Virus record (IMG/VR): IMGVR_UViG_3300022689_000470
Span: 1-24,439 of that record
From: a virus
Reading direction: 5' to 3' (one strand)
Length of the DNA: 24,439 bases
Below, one piece after another: positions 7,836 through 21,962 of the stretch (position 1 is the first letter of the stretch; the number at the start of each line of letters is the position of its first letter). The notes beneath the pieces are model-generated. The model saw only the letters and a list, made by a program, of their open reading frames with translations, made no database searches and was not told where the DNA came from. The position numbers were made by a program, and so were the translations under genes.

Positions 7836-8272
7836 CCGGCGCCCCGCTCGATGAAACCGCCGCGCGCCGTCGCGCGCAGGAGCTTTTGACCTACGCCGTT
7901 TCGGCTGAAGACGTGGCGGAGCGCACCGGGCTTTCCCTGAGCGCCGTCCTGGCGATGCGGGGCGATTTGCGGGAGCCGGAGCCGGAGCCTGAACCGCCGC
8001 GCCCGCGCTCGCCCATGACGCGCGTGATGCGCATCAAGCAGGAGGTTGCGGACAAGCACGGGCTGGCGATCCGCGAGATGATCGGCCCGTGCCGCAAGCG
8101 GCCTCTGGTATACGCCCGTTTTGAACTGATGGCGCGCCTGCGCCAGGAAACGCGGCTGTCTCTGCATGCTATCGGCCGGCACTGCGGCGGGCGCGATCAT
8201 TCCACGGTCGTTCACGGGATTAAGCGCCACCTGGACAGGCTTGAGCGCGAAGCCCGGGGGCGCGCGCCGTGA
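7832..8272 (+). CDS. DnaA domain IV-like origin-binding protein
   Basis: A 146-residue protein whose C-terminal half (about residues 66-135) matches the DNA-binding domain IV of DnaA: EVADKHGLAIREMIGPCRKR, ARFELMARLRQETRLSLHAI and the signature GGRDHSTVVHG at 119-129. The AAA+ ATPase domain of DnaA is absent. Residues 21-44 (EDVAERTGLSLSAVLAMRG) form a second HTH-like element, joined by a PEPEPEPP linker (about 49-58). It is coupled to the preceding small HTH gene by ATGA and to the DnaB-like helicase by GTGA. It could recognise DnaA-box-like sites and recruit the phage helicase, or compete with host DnaA. Confidence 0.88.
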   Translation: MTGAPLDETAARRRAQELLTYAVSAEDVAERTGLSLSAVLAMRGDLREPEPEPEPPRPRSPMTRVMRIKQEVADKHGLAIREMIGPCRKRPLVYARFELMARLRQETRLSLHAIGRHCGGRDHSTVVHGIKRHLDRLEREARGRAP

Positions 8273-9624
8273 CGACGCTGCACAATCTTGAAGCCGAGCA
8301 GGCGCTGCTGGGCGCGCTGATGGATCAGCCCGAGAGCTTTGAGGCCGTCGCCGACCGGCTGGCGGCGGAGAGCTTTTACGATCCGGTGCACGGGCGCATT
8401 TACGAGGCCATCAAGGCGCGCGTCGAGGCGGCGGCTTTAGGCGATGCGGTCGGCGTGTTTCAGCGCCTGGGCGATGACGCCGGGCTGGCGGAGCTGGGCG
8501 GGGCGGAATATCTCGGCAAGCTGCAGCTGGACGCGCCCTCGGCGGTCACCGCGCCGGCTTACTGCGATCTGGTCACTGAGGCCGCGCAGCGCCGCAAGCT
8601 CAAGGCTCTGGCCCAGACCCTGACCGAAGAAGCGGAAGCCGCCGAGGTCACGCCGCAGGCCGCCCAGGAGCGCGCGGAGGCCGCGCTGGCGGCTTCGGCC
8701 GGGACAAGCGCCGAGCGGCGCGTCATGACGGCGTCCTTTGCTCTGGATGCGGCGTTGAAAAGCCGCGATGCGGGCATGGCGACCGGCTGGGCGGATCTCG
8801 ATCGCGCCTTTCTCGGCTGGCGCAAGGGCCGGCTTTACATCGCCGCCGGGCGGCCCGGCATGGGCAAAAGCCTTTTCGGCGCGCATGCGGCGTTGAACGT
8901 GGCGCGCGCGGGCGGGCCGGTCGCGTTCGTCTCGCTGGAGATGAGCGCGGAGGAGGTCGCGCTGCGGCTGGCCGGGGCCGTCTCCGGTCTTGCGTACTCC
9001 GAGATCGAGCGCGGCGTGCGCGATGAAGCGATGGCGCGCGCCGTCAGCGCGGCGCAGGAGACGCTGCACGATCTGCCTTATACGATTTTGGACATGCCCG
9101 GCGCGGGCGTCGGCGCGATCCGCGCGCGGCTGCGCCGGCTGGACCGGGAAAGCGTGCGCGCGCGCGGGCGCGGGCTCGCGCTGGTCGTGATCGATTATAT
9201 GGGCCTGATGGGCAGCGAGAGCCGCGCCCAGGCCTCGATCTATGAACAAGCCACGGAAAAGTCGAACGGGCTGAAACACATGGCCCGCGCGCTGGACCTG
9301 CCCGTGTTGTGCCTTTCGCAATTAAACCGGCAGGTCGAACAGCGCTCGGACAAGCGCCCGATGCTGGCGGATTTGCGCGACAGCGGCGCGGTGGAGCAGG
9401 ACGCCGACGCCGTCTTCGGCCTGTTTCGCGACGCCTATTACGCGGCCCAGGAGCCGGCGCGGGAGGATGCGGCGGAGGAGCTGGCGCGCATCGATCGCGC
9501 CGGCCGCCGCGAGCTGGACCTGATCATCCTCAAGCAACGCCACGGCCGAACCGGCGCGGTGCGGTTGTTCTGCGATCCGGCGACCGGCCGCATCGCGAGC
9601 TATGACGAAAGGAGCGCGGCATGA
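8269..9624 (+). CDS. dnaB: Replicative DNA helicase, DnaB-like
   Basis: A 451-residue hexameric RecA-fold helicase for phage DNA unwinding. The N-terminal domain (LEAEQALLGALMDQPESFEA onward) is DnaB-like. The C-terminal domain has Walker A GRPGMGKS at 194-201, the FVSLEMSAEEV segment, Walker B VVIDYMGLM from 306, LSQLNR at 349-354 and DLRDSGAVEQDAD at 368-380. The start is GTG at 8269, overlapping the previous stop. All key motifs are intact. It lies between the DnaA-like protein and a replisome-organiser-like gene, a common phage replication arrangement. Confidence 0.95.
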   Translation: MTTLHNLEAEQALLGALMDQPESFEAVADRLAAESFYDPVHGRIYEAIKARVEAAALGDAVGVFQRLGDDAGLAELGGAEYLGKLQLDAPSAVTAPAYCDLVTEAAQRRKLKALAQTLTEEAEAAEVTPQAAQERAEAALAASAGTSAERRVMTASFALDAALKSRDAGMATGWADLDRAFLGWRKGRLYIAAGRPGMGKSLFGAHAALNVARAGGPVAFVSLEMSAEEVALRLAGAVSGLAYSEIERGVRDEAMARAVSAAQETLHDLPYTILDMPGAGVGAIRARLRRLDRESVRARGRGLALVVIDYMGLMGSESRAQASIYEQATEKSNGLKHMARALDLPVLCLSQLNRQVEQRSDKRPMLADLRDSGAVEQDADAVFGLFRDAYYAAQEPAREDAAEELARIDRAGRRELDLIILKQRHGRTGAVRLFCDPATGRIASYDERSAA

Positions 9625-17490: not shown

Positions 17491-17684
17491 GCCGCTACAC
17501 GCAGGCCCAGTACGATGCGCTTCGCGAGGCGGTCGCGCGCGGCGTGACCCGCGTCAGCTATAACGGCCAGACGGTCGAGTATCGCGACCTGGCCGAGATG
17601 AACCAGCTGCTGCTGCGGATGGAGTCCGATCTGGGGCTGTCCGAGCCGCGCGCGTCGCGCACGCGTTACGCGCGGGATTGCTGA
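17487..17684 (+). CDS. gpW-like head-to-tail joining protein
   Basis: A 65-residue protein: YTQAQYDALREAVARGVTRV, then SYNGQTVEYRDLAEM and NQLLLRMESDLG. This two-helix plus beta-hairpin plan (R/V-S-Y-N-G-Q-x-V-E-Y/F) matches lambda gpW-like head-tail connectors. It sits between terminase and portal as in lambda, coupled to the terminase stop by ATGA and followed by the portal after two bases. Its role is to close the portal end of the filled head and receive the tail. Confidence 0.85.
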   Translation: MSRYTQAQYDALREAVARGVTRVSYNGQTVEYRDLAEMNQLLLRMESDLGLSEPRASRTRYARDC

Positions 17685-17686
17685 CC

Positions 17687-19222
17687 GTGGCGGATCGCAG
17701 CTGGCTTGATCAGGCGATCGCTTTCGTCTCGCCGAAGGCGGCGGCGCAGCGCGCATCCTGGCGCAAGGCGCTGGACGCCGCGCACGGCCGGCGGAGCTAT
17801 GAGGCGGCGAAGAAAGGACGGCTCAGCGGCTGGACGGCGTCGGACGCCTCTGCGTCCGCGTTGGCGGAGGCCGCCGCCCCGAAGCTGCGGGCGCGATGCC
17901 GGGAGCTGGCGCGCAACGACGCTTACGCGGCGCGCGGGATCAGCGTCATCTGTGAAAGCGCGATCGGCGGCGCGGGCCTGACCCCGCAGCCCGACACGGG
18001 CGATGACGCGCTCGACACGCAAATTACGGAAGCCTTCAAGGCCTGGTGCGAGGAATGCGACGCGACCGGCGACAGCGACTTCTTCGGGGTCCAGGATCTG
18101 GCTTGCCGCACGATCGTGGAGGCCGGAGACGTGCTCATCCGGCGGCGGCTTCGCCGCTCGACGGACGGGCTGAGCGTGCCTTTGCAGGTCCAGCTTCTGG
18201 AGCCGGATCATCTGGACGCGGCGCTGACGCGCAACGGTGGAAACGATGTCGTCGGCGGGATTGAGCTTGATCAGCTCGACCGGCGCCAAGCCTATCATCT
18301 TTTCCGGGACCATCCCGGAGACAGCCGCTTGCGTGTGCGGGGCCGCACGCTGACGTCAACGCGCGTGCCTGCGAGCGAGATCGCGCACGCCTTCATCAAG
18401 GCGCGACCCGGTCAGCTTCTCGGCGTGCCATGGCTTTCACCGGTCATCCTTGATCTTGTGGATCTCAAGGATTTTGAAGAAGCGGCTCTGGTCCGCGCCA
18501 AGGTCGAGGCGTGCATCGGCCTTCTGGTCACGACGCCGGATGGCGGCGCCGGCCCGATCGCTCCCGCGGGATTCGTGACTGACGACGATGACGGGCGGGT
18601 GGAGACGCTTCATCCCGGCATGGTTGAATACCTGAAGCCGGGCGAGACGATCGAGTCGCTGAATCCGACGCCGACGAACGGCTATGACGCGTTCACACGC
18701 GCGCGTTTGCACAAGATCGCGACCGGCATCGGCATGCCCTACATGCTGCTGACCGGCGATGTCAGTCAGGCGAACTTCAGCTCGTACAAGGCCGGGCTGG
18801 TTCCGTTCAAGCAGATGATCCGCCGCTTTCAAAAGCGCGTCCTGTTACCGATGGTCTGCCGGCCCCTCTGGCGCTGGTTCATTGATGCGGCCGAGGCGGC
18901 CGGGCGGATTGATCGCGCCGAGTACGGCGTGCGCTGGACCCTGCCGGGATTTGAGAGCATCGACCGGCAAAAGGAGGCGCTGGGCGAGCTGCAGGAAATC
19001 CGCATGGGCAAAACCTCGCTGCAGGAGGTCATCCGCCAGGGCGGAGGCAGTTTTGACCGCGTCATGGCCGAGTGGGCCGCGTTCGCGGCGCATGTCGACG
19101 GAAAAGAACTCGTGTTCGACAGCGACCCGCGCCGGGTGACGCGCGCAGGCGTCGGACAGCCCAGCGACCCGAGAGCGCAGCGAGAAGACGGCGGCGAGGC
19201 GCCGCAGAGCGGAGGCGAGTAA
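17687..19222 (+). CDS. Portal protein, lambda family
   Basis: A 511-residue lambda-type portal, the dodecameric ring at the head vertex through which DNA passes. Family features: ARCRELARNDAYAARGISVI near the N-terminus, SDFFGVQDLACRTIVEAGDV, then QVQLLEPDHLD, HAFIKARPGQLLGVPWLSPV, and TGDVSQANFSSYKAG. Start is GTG at 17687; a TTG nine bases upstream is also possible. It ends with a Gly/Glu/Arg-rich tail and overlaps the next gene as TAATG. The core motifs look complete. Confidence 0.93.
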   Translation: MADRSWLDQAIAFVSPKAAAQRASWRKALDAAHGRRSYEAAKKGRLSGWTASDASASALAEAAAPKLRARCRELARNDAYAARGISVICESAIGGAGLTPQPDTGDDALDTQITEAFKAWCEECDATGDSDFFGVQDLACRTIVEAGDVLIRRRLRRSTDGLSVPLQVQLLEPDHLDAALTRNGGNDVVGGIELDQLDRRQAYHLFRDHPGDSRLRVRGRTLTSTRVPASEIAHAFIKARPGQLLGVPWLSPVILDLVDLKDFEEAALVRAKVEACIGLLVTTPDGGAGPIAPAGFVTDDDDGRVETLHPGMVEYLKPGETIESLNPTPTNGYDAFTRARLHKIATGIGMPYMLLTGDVSQANFSSYKAGLVPFKQMIRRFQKRVLLPMVCRPLWRWFIDAAEAAGRIDRAEYGVRWTLPGFESIDRQKEALGELQEIRMGKTSLQEVIRQGGGSFDRVMAEWAAFAAHVDGKELVFDSDPRRVTRAGVGQPSDPRAQREDGGEAPQSGGE

Positions 19223-21222
19223 TGCCCGAACCAGTGACGAAGACCGTCGAGCTGAAACGGCTCGGGCGGGCGGCGGAGGTGCGCGCGCAGACCGTCGATG
19301 AAGAGGCGCGCACGGTTGAGTTGGTCTGGTCGACCGGCGCGGGCGTCGAGCGCCGCATTCCGGGGATCGGCCGCGTGCTCGAAGTGCTCGAGATGGACGA
19401 GCGCAATATCCGTCTGGACCGCCTGCGCAACGGCGCGCCGCTTTTGAATACGCATTGGGATTTTGATCTGAGCGACGTTCTCGGCGTCGTCGAAGAGGCG
19501 TGGGTCGAGGACGGCGCCGGCATGGCGCGCGTCCGCTTCTCCGGCCGCGAACAAGTGGACGGCGTGTGGCGCGATGTCGCCGCCGGGATCATCCGCAATA
19601 TCAGCGTGGGCTACCGCGTCCACGCCATGGAGATCGAAGAGCGTGACGGGGAAATCCCGATCATGCGCGTGACCGACTGGGAGCCGCTTGAACTGAGCGC
19701 GGTTCCGGTTCCCGCCGACCCAGGCGCAGGGTTCCGGGCGGAGGATGATCAAGCCTATCCCTGCACGCTTAAGAGGGCTCCGACGCCCGATCAGTCCAAG
19801 GAGGATGATATGTCGGACGAAGAGAACGGCGTCGAGACCCGTGACGCCAAGCCGGACGCGAAACAGGACAAGCCCGCTTCGGCGCCTGAGCAGGTAATTG
19901 TCGATGAACGCAAGGCGCGGGATGCGGCCGAGGATGCGGTGAAGGCGGAGCGCGCGCGCGCCGCGGAGATCCGCAAGATCGGCTCCCGTCTCGCGGACAA
20001 GTTCGAGGGCTTCGACAAGGCGCTGATCGATCAAGCGATTGATGACGGCCGAACGGTCGAGCAGGCCCGCGCGGCGTTCCTCGACGCGCTGGCCGAAGCC
20101 GATAGCGGCGCGACGGTGAACAGCCGCGTGTCGGTCGGCCGCGATGAGCGGGAGACGAAGCGGCGTCTCATGGCGGACGCGCTCAGCGCGCGCGTGCGCA
20201 ACAAGGATCCCGAGGATGACGCCGCGCGCGAGTTCCGCGGCATGACGCTCGTGGATATGGCGCGCGAGTGCGTGGACATCCGCGGTGAACGCACGCGCGG
20301 CAAAACGCGCTCCGAGATCGTTCGCGAGGCGCTGTCTCGCGGCTATCATTCCACGAGCGACTTCCCGTTGATCCTCGCCAACGTGATGAACAAGACGCTG
20401 CGGGCGGCGTATGAGGCGGCGCCTCAGACGTTCCGGCCGATCGTGCGCGAGCGCACGGCGTCGGACTTTAAGCCGATCACCAATGTGCGCTTAGACGGCT
20501 CGATCTCGCTGGTCGCCAAGCCGGAAGGCGCGGAATACAAGTTCGCGACCATCGGCGAGCACAGCGAGGTGTATTCGCTGGCGACCTATGGCCGGGCGAT
20601 CTCGTTCACCCGCGAGATGATCATTAACGATGATCTGGCGGCGTTCGACCGGATCACCGGCAAGTTCGGCCAGGCGGCGGCGGATTTTGAGTCCGACACG
20701 GTCTGGGCTCTGCTGACCTCCAATCCGACGATGGGCGACAGCACGGCGTTGTTCCACGCCGATCACGGCAACCTCGCCTCGGCCGGCGCGATCACCATCG
20801 ACAATCTGGGCAAGGCCCGCACGCTGATGCGCAACCAGACCGACGGCGACACGCGGCTGAACATCGAGCCGGCGTTCCTCGCGGTTCCGGCGGAGCTTGA
20901 GACGGTCGCACGTCAGTACATGACGGCGTCGATCGTGCCGGAAACCTCGGCTAACGCGAACGTCTACGCTAATTCGATGGGCGTCATCATCGAGCCGCGC
21001 CTGGCCGAGACGACCGTCGGCGGCTCGGCGGATGATTGGTATTTGATCGCCAATCCGTCGCGGATCGACACCATCGAAATCGCTTATCTCGAGGGCGAGG
21101 CCGGGGTCCAGACCGAGCAAACCGAAGACTGGAACACCGACGGCGTGAAGCTGAAGGCCCGTCTTGTCTTCGCGGCGAAGGCGATGGACTGGCGCGGCTT
21201 CGTGAAAAACCCCGGCTCCTAA
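19222..21222 (+). CDS. Prohead protease / major capsid fusion protein
   Basis: A 666-residue fusion. Residues 1-170 are an HK97-type (ClpP-like) prohead protease: candidate catalytic His78 in LLNTHW and Ser128 in NISVGYRV, then LELSAVPVPADPGA. Residues about 197-345 form a charged scaffold-like region (DERKARDAAEDAVKAERARA). From about residue 375 comes an HK97-fold capsid of the Mu-like type: DFPLILANVMNKTLRAAYEA, GEHSEVYSLATYGRAISFTR, SDTVWALLTSNP and YLIANPSRIDTIEIAYLEGE. An internal ATG at codon 197 has a strong ribosome-binding site (see 19798-19812), so free scaffold-capsid chains are likely. It overlaps the portal stop by one base and is followed by a terminator. Confidence 0.92.
   Translation: MPEPVTKTVELKRLGRAAEVRAQTVDEEARTVELVWSTGAGVERRIPGIGRVLEVLEMDERNIRLDRLRNGAPLLNTHWDFDLSDVLGVVEEAWVEDGAGMARVRFSGREQVDGVWRDVAAGIIRNISVGYRVHAMEIEERDGEIPIMRVTDWEPLELSAVPVPADPGAGFRAEDDQAYPCTLKRAPTPDQSKEDDMSDEENGVETRDAKPDAKQDKPASAPEQVIVDERKARDAAEDAVKAERARAAEIRKIGSRLADKFEGFDKALIDQAIDDGRTVEQARAAFLDALAEADSGATVNSRVSVGRDERETKRRLMADALSARVRNKDPEDDAAREFRGMTLVDMARECVDIRGERTRGKTRSEIVREALSRGYHSTSDFPLILANVMNKTLRAAYEAAPQTFRPIVRERTASDFKPITNVRLDGSISLVAKPEGAEYKFATIGEHSEVYSLATYGRAISFTREMIINDDLAAFDRITGKFGQAAADFESDTVWALLTSNPTMGDSTALFHADHGNLASAGAITIDNLGKARTLMRNQTDGDTRLNIEPAFLAVPAELETVARQYMTASIVPETSANANVYANSMGVIIEPRLAETTVGGSADDWYLIANPSRIDTIEIAYLEGEAGVQTEQTEDWNTDGVKLKARLVFAAKAMDWRGFVKNPGS
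19798..19812 (+). promoter_or_regulatory. Internal ribosome-binding site and start within protease-capsid fusion
   Basis: AAGGAGG (19798-19804), 5-base spacer, ATG (19810-19812), in frame at codon 197 of the fusion gene, exactly between the protease and scaffold-capsid parts. It is one of the strongest Shine-Dalgarno sequences in the window and should give a separate capsid precursor of 470 residues. Confidence 0.75.
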
Positions 21223-21246
21223 GCCGGATTGACGCAATGACCTGAA

Positions 21247-21279
21247 GCAGGGCGGCCATCGGCCGCCCTGCTTTGTTTT
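21247..21279 (+). terminator. Intrinsic terminator after the capsid gene
   Basis: GCAGGGCGGCC (21247-21257), ATC loop, GGCCGCCCTGC (21261-21271), then TTTGTTTT: a perfect 11-bp stem. It lies between capsid and the DUF2190 cement gene, so it should lower transcription of downstream tail genes relative to capsid unless antiterminated. Confidence 0.9.
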
Positions 21280-21294
21280 GAAAGGACCATCATC

Positions 21295-21645
21295 ATGGCT
21301 ACGAACTTTAACCAGGAAGGCCGCTTTCTGGAGGTGACGGCGCCGGCGGCTGTGTCGGCGGGAGACTTGGTCAAGGTCGGCCAGATCTTCGGCGTGGCGC
21401 AAGGCGACGCGGACTCCGCCGCAACTGTCGTTATTGACACCGAGGGCGTTTACACGCTGCCCGTGGCGTCGGCGGCGGTCGTCGCGATCGGCGACGCGCT
21501 CTACTGGGATGTGGCGGACGGCGAGCTGAACAAAACGGCGTCGTCCAATCATTATGTCGGCGTCGCAATCACGGCGGCCGGCGCCGGCGTGACGGCCGCG
21601 CAAGTGCGGCTTAACGGCGCCTTCCCGGCTGCGGCGGGCGCGTAA
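21295..21645 (+). CDS. DUF2190 capsid cement/decoration protein
   Basis: A 116-residue protein with the DUF2190 plan: MATNFNQEGRFLEVTAPAAV, SAGDLVKVGQIFGVAQ, ALYWDVADGELNKTASSNHY and VGVAITAAGAG. Family members decorate or stabilise capsids and usually lie beside the capsid gene, as here. AAAGGA lies 9 bases upstream of the ATG. It is the first gene after the post-capsid terminator. It is Ala/Val/Gly-rich with no membrane segment. Confidence 0.88.
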   Translation: MATNFNQEGRFLEVTAPAAVSAGDLVKVGQIFGVAQGDADSAATVVIDTEGVYTLPVASAAVVAIGDALYWDVADGELNKTASSNHYVGVAITAAGAGVTAAQVRLNGAFPAAAGA

Positions 21646-21647
21646 TC

Positions 21648-21962
21648 GTGGCGGCGCCTGTGTTCGGCGGCATGGGCGCCGTCTTTCAGGACACGCTGGG
21701 AGAAGACACCGTCTACACGCCGCAGGGCGGCGAGCCGGTGTCTCTCCGCGGCGTGTTCCTTCGAGCCTTTGAGGCGATAGAGATCGAGGGCGGCGGGCCG
21801 GACGTGCAAAGCGCGTCGGTGCAGGTCGCCTATCCCAGCGACCAGGTCCCGGACGCTGCGATCGGCGATGAAGTGCAAGCGGACGGCCAGGCCTGGTCAG
21901 TCATCGCGGTGCAGCCGGACGGCGTCGCGATGACGCGGCTTTTTCTTCACCTGAAGGCCTGA
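21648..21962 (+). CDS. Head-tail joining protein, lambda FII-like
   Basis: A 104-residue protein starting at GTG 21648, two bases after the DUF2190 stop. FGGMGAVFQDTLGEDTVYTP, then VSLRGVFLRAFEAIEIEGGG, PSDQVPDAAIGDEVQADGQA and WSVIAVQPDGVAMTRLFL match the beta-barrel plan of FII-type head-tail connectors, which attach to gpW and form the tail-docking surface. Order and size agree with lambda. The next gene begins one base after its stop. Confidence 0.82.
   Translation: MAAPVFGGMGAVFQDTLGEDTVYTPQGGEPVSLRGVFLRAFEAIEIEGGGPDVQSASVQVAYPSDQVPDAAIGDEVQADGQAWSVIAVQPDGVAMTRLFLHLKA

Follow-up and report, generated by a model that had tools for sequence, protein, structure and literature searches.

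How does a phage enclose a suitable number of maturation proteases in its prohead when protease and capsid are encoded as one protein, a fusion that would seemingly force one protease on every capsid subunit? The question is raised by the head operon of virus record IMGVR_UViG_3300022689_000470, a stretch of 24,439 bases that is referred to here as the window. Its 666-aa protease–scaffold–capsid open reading frame (ORF) lies 3′ of terminase, head–tail joining and portal genes and 5′ of a cement protein gene. A conserved internal start would be a simple answer, in that one gene would supply two co-assembled chains. A tyrosine integrase (Phage_integrase; 1–963, − strand) at its left edge, together with a DnaB-type helicase (8269–9624), gives the record the appearance of a temperate phage or of a fragment of a prophage. 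The features of the head region, all on the + strand, are as follows.

17678..19222, + strand: portal protein gene (lambda family), the stop TAA of which overlaps the fusion start (TAATG)
19211..19215, + strand: GGAGG Shine–Dalgarno sequence of the first start, duplex energy −9.5 kcal/mol
19222..21222, + strand: protease–scaffold–capsid fusion ORF, 666 aa (NF045541, scaf_prot_MCP2)
19291..19737, + strand: prohead serine protease domain (Peptidase_S78), residues ~24–172
19744..19902, + strand: disordered linker, residues 175–227 (pLDDT <50 in the AlphaFold model), which holds the putative internal start
19798..19804, + strand: AAGGAGG internal Shine–Dalgarno sequence, kept in relatives
19810..19812, + strand: ATG codon 197, the putative internal start codon
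19810..21222, + strand: probable second product, a 470-aa scaffold–capsid chain, suggested by family conservation
19906..20280, + strand: helical, scaffold-like (delta-domain-like) region, residues ~229–353 in the AlphaFold model; function putative
20254..21210, + strand: HK97-fold capsid domain (Phage_capsid_4), residues 345–663
21295..21645, + strand: cement/decoration protein gene (Phage_cement_2)

Protease and scaffold–capsid share one frame, as the original prediction had stated. Pfam places Peptidase_S78 at residues 77–169 and Phage_capsid_4 at 345–663 of the ORF, with an N-terminal match to PF04586 (S78) of 26.4 bits (cut-off, 21) and a capsid match to PF25209 of 205 bits; the same domain search found no Clp domain in the protein. 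The match to NF045541 (‘prohead protease/major capsid protein fusion protein’) is full length, covering profile positions 1–633 of 634 at 720.2 bits (cut-off, 525; E = 2 × 10−216), and the domain order is that of NF045541 and of phrog_4523, which PHROGs labels ‘major head and protease protein’. All 42 members of sequence set A1 match NF045541. The score against NF045540 is 344 bits, under the cut-off of 475, and covers the C-terminal part only.

An AlphaFold model (mean pLDDT, 77), for which 32 relatives were aligned, has a folded protease ending at residue 172, close to the border of about 170 that had been predicted, followed by a low-confidence stretch, long helices and then the capsid part. 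The top Foldseek matches of the capsid part are HK97-fold capsids (HK97 included) and encapsulins; a PDB sequence search gave a weak capsid match only. Codon 197 falls midway along the disordered linker that separates the two folded parts, and in this model a start there would leave the helical, delta-domain-like region ahead of the capsid domain. The position and helicity of that region suggest a scaffold role.

The AAGGAGG motif and the ATG stand exactly where they had been predicted, 5 nt apart and with the ATG in the frame of the 666-aa ORF; translation from it would give 470 residues, also as predicted. The Shine–Dalgarno duplex at codon 197 is the strongest among the 81 internal in-frame ATGs of the window’s likely genes, at −11.4 kcal/mol compared with −8.0 kcal/mol for the runner-up, calculated with the usual 16S tail as the assumed anti-Shine–Dalgarno sequence. 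Selection is not evident from the window alone, because the K-E-D-D residues and GC-rich codon use write AAGGAG unaided, and 61% of synonymous-codon shuffles of the gene match or exceed the strength at codon 197. As the window gave no clear answer, the test was made on relatives.

Relatives were drawn from bacterial genomes, viral contigs and annotated phages, and their fusion ORFs were located with profiles made from the first relative set. Each ATG was scored by the energy of the duplex that the 16S tail forms with the 16 bases at −20 to −5. The main set comprised 36 non-redundant (<70% identity) S78-type fusions of the same capsid family, and the border window was defined as 165 to 95 codons ahead of the capsid domain. 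An ATG lies in this border window in 35 of the 36 fusions. Far from being absent in all relatives, an ATG with a Shine–Dalgarno duplex of ≤ −5 kcal/mol is found there in 33, against 17.5 ± 2.6 (maximum, 25) in 200 rounds of synonymous shuffling; the duplex is weak or absent in some relatives (L115, L168 and L082). When the genes are divided into 30-codon bins, the bin at −150 to −121 holds such a site in 25/36 fusions, the next bin in 9/36 and bins inside the capsid domain in 0–7 of 36.

Within the border window, duplexes of ≤ −5.5 kcal/mol precede 37 of 60 in-frame ATGs compared with 17 of 101 out-of-frame ATGs (P = 8 × 10−9), and their spacing to the ATG is mostly 3–7 nt. The Shine–Dalgarno core uses all three codon phases (16/11/8) and is encoded over different residues (K-E, Q-E-G, E-G-E, P-E-G and K-R-S), so that bases rather than one peptide have been kept, and the internal start is under selection at the nucleotide level. 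Proline is residue 2 after the border methionine in 11 of 36 fusions but after only 8 of 478 other methionines (P = 2 × 10−9), and proline frequency in the linker peaks at this position, as expected for true N termini. Relative to shuffles, the real sequences fold a little less strongly around the site (mean z = +0.68; 24/36), a minor effect. The sites persist among relatives of 24–57% identity and in several architectures.

The signal recurs in other sets of fusions. A held-out S78 set (80 loci, L302–L381; 18 after clustering at 75%), at least three loci of which (L302–L304) repeat contigs of the first viral-contig collection, has an ATG with a duplex of ≤ −5 kcal/mol within 5–75 codons past the protease in 18/18 cases (shuffles, 12.2 ± 1.7; maximum, 16). 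Two sets in which S78 is fused to a different capsid family, Phage_capsid PF05065, gave 13/17 (vB_EcoM-ep3/KA2-1-like; shuffles, 6.6 ± 1.8; maximum, 12) and 8/9 (Roseobacter CRP-811-like; shuffles, 5.1 ± 1.2; maximum, 7), each with a sharp peak confined to one 25-codon bin. Fusions of ClpP type in the capsid family of the window, for which Pfam CLP_protease was present in 5/5 sequences checked, also carry border starts, as the window’s fusion does: 25 of 31 have the site (shuffles, 17.0 ± 2.1; maximum, 22), and proline is residue 2 in 10/31 compared with 28/628 elsewhere (P = 2 × 10−6). Their signal is weaker than that of the S78 type, with codon phases skewed (22/6/1) and the strongest internal duplex frequently elsewhere within the protease.

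In a maximum-likelihood tree computed from 77 capsid domains, S78-fused, ClpP-fused and split-gene forms are intermixed, which makes the protease–capsid joint a site of recurrent exchange. The best tree requires at least 14 changes among the three states, the direction of which it does not give, and well-supported branches alone force 8 for the S78-fused, 7 for the ClpP-fused and 3 for the split state. Separate protease and capsid genes occur in three lineages, with the capsid start shortly 3′ of the protease stop. Of 11 split loci inspected, 8 have both genes in the same frame (L004, L037, L039, L042, L043, L047, L105 and L174), with a short spacer and an in-frame stop (TAA, TAG or TGA) between them. 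Fusion and splitting are therefore small steps, and stop readthrough at these loci would yield the fusion. Judged from sequence, the candidate capsid start is kept whichever protease precedes it, with or without an intervening stop codon.

The split loci bear directly on one alternative, in which the internal start is left over from two once separate genes that were joined by loss of a stop, has no function, and only the fusion is made. In its favour, such loci exist, and most of those inspected have both genes in one frame; however, a relic Shine–Dalgarno sequence in a fast-changing linker would be expected to decay, whereas the sites persist at 24–57% identity across several architectures, in every codon phase and more often than in synonymous shuffles, and we regard the explanation as quite improbable. 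The motif might instead act on elongating ribosomes, as a pause for protease folding or in frameshifting, and not in initiation. Intragenic Shine–Dalgarno-like motifs can pause ribosomes or stimulate frameshifts, for example in dnaX, but the motif here is followed by a start codon at initiation spacing and by Met-Pro, and it favours in-frame ATGs, which makes a role in elongation very improbable.

There is next to no probability, in our view, that the signal is a coding artefact in which Lys/Glu/Gly-rich disordered linkers write AGGAG and the methionine is accidental. The window’s own motif, which falls within the synonymous null, would fit such an origin; the family-wide excess over shuffles, the sharp positional peak, the preference for in-frame over out-of-frame ATGs and the Met-Pro enrichment argue against it. 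The same family evidence (Shine–Dalgarno excess, in-frame bias, codon phases, Met-Pro and replication) supports a nested, dual-product head gene well, and we consider it very likely that the ORF encodes both a long, protease-bearing chain and a 470-aa scaffold–capsid chain. Because the second start recurs in very distant fusion phages, one gene most likely makes two proteins, and the predicted pair of products from a single frame is well supported by conservation at the sequence level.

We infer that both proteins are produced here, at a ratio that may set the protease dose as originally proposed, and that they co-assemble and undergo cleavage. Translation of the head-operon mRNA would begin at 19222, overlapping the portal stop, to give the 666-aa chain and, from its independent AAGGAGG, at 19810 to give the 470-aa chain. 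As both chains would share scaffold and capsid parts, they should be able to co-assemble in one prohead, and co-assembly through these common parts would bring the protease in covalently attached, with the long chain as its tether. The protease would later cleave off scaffold and linker, and the shell would keep the mature capsid domains only. The flexible linker that holds the putative internal start is also where S78 and ClpP proteases have been exchanged in the course of evolution. A consensus scan, in which the promoters covered were of the sigma-70 type, found no internal sigma-70 promoter in 17500–21700. Downstream of the capsid stop and ahead of the cement gene, a near-perfect 14-pair hairpin and then a UUUGUUUU-like sequence (21244–21280, + strand; about −29 kcal/mol, z = −5.2), missing from the output of the consensus scan, looks like an intrinsic terminator or attenuator within the head operon.

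The ratio of the two chains was predicted to be that of a rare fusion and an abundant capsid, and this part of the prediction is not borne out by Shine–Dalgarno strengths. In the window the first start has −9.5 kcal/mol compared with −11.4 kcal/mol for the internal one. Across 35 relatives, the best upstream candidate averages −7.3 and the internal site −7.8 kcal/mol (P = 0.33), the internal duplex being stronger in 18 and weaker in 17. At the annotated starts of 10 phages, the internal duplex exceeds the upstream one in 8 cases and roughly equals it in another, but the claim of a ratio was dropped because annotated starts may be wrong. From Shine–Dalgarno strengths one would not expect the short product to be in large excess; a rare fusion among abundant capsid chains is nonetheless plausible from prohead stoichiometry.

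Nested scaffold starts in protease genes (lambda C/Nu3, Mu and PaMx73) and the fusion family itself are already known. In lambda, the protease gene C has an in-frame internal start that gives the C-terminal part alone (Nu3). The window shares with it a putative in-frame internal start with a Shine–Dalgarno sequence inside the protease gene, and the parallel originally drawn with lambda is apt as an analogy; however, lambda has a gene of its own for the capsid (E) and its nested product comprises nothing but scaffold, whereas the nested frame here runs through the capsid domain, so that scaffold and capsid together make up the shared C-terminal part. HK97 gp4/gp5 have an S78 protease and a helical delta domain ahead of the HK97-fold capsid, but there protease and scaffold–capsid are two separate genes, compared with one fused gene in the window. 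The ‘tripartite capsid gene’ of Gifsy-2, described by Effantin et al. in 2010, reportedly unites protease, a central, probable scaffold domain and capsid; the Gifsy-2/NF045540 type has a ClpP-like protease, whereas the window has S78.

Phage Mu I/Z and the protease–scaffold gene of PaMx73 have an in-frame internal start with a Shine–Dalgarno sequence inside the protease gene (Val177 in PaMx73; PMC4378225), with scaffold as the nested product and capsid separate, unlike the scaffold–capsid of the window. Fusions of protease, scaffold and capsid are described as a single gene in excerpts of reports on small actinobacteriophages (PMC7302621) and, for the same kind of fusion, on Rhodobacter RcC phages (PMC8601537), and these excerpts do not mention an internal start. 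Protease–capsid fusion is also known from Paracoccus prophages (PMC6536676). The description returned for NF045541 annotates a single fusion protein and does not include an internal start. We found no report of one in protease–major capsid fusions in the literature searched, which mostly left out subscription papers, the Gifsy-2 paper among them.

With a border start conserved across four or more protease–capsid fusion groups, fusion can be read as a protease-mixing device. We lean towards the view that tailed-phage protease–capsid fusions generally yield more than one product, that fusion mixes protease-bearing subunits into the shell, and that linker and start form the exchange joint for the unrelated S78 and ClpP proteases. 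This would offer a reason for protease types being swappable while the capsid retains its own expression, and database entries for these capsid proteins perhaps list a product other than the main shell subunit. The two-chain answer is directly testable in cultured phages (RcKemmy, Stenotrophomonas S1, MD8 and vB_EcoM-ep3-like phages).

Some loci depart from the common layout. At L021:2901–4953 a stop codon in the capsid domain interrupts the fusion frame, where two ORFs join at about 4164; this may reflect pseudogenization, faulty assembly or some other cause. Synechococcus phage S-CBS3 (L184, 1778–4285) has no strong border Shine–Dalgarno sequence among its best internal sites. In this phage and in Roseobacter phage CRP-811 (L180, 1799–4246), the protease domain is preceded by an extension of about 200 residues, which in CRP-811 gives a weak TUDOR-like Pfam match, so that both may have an additional module fused N-terminal to the protease.
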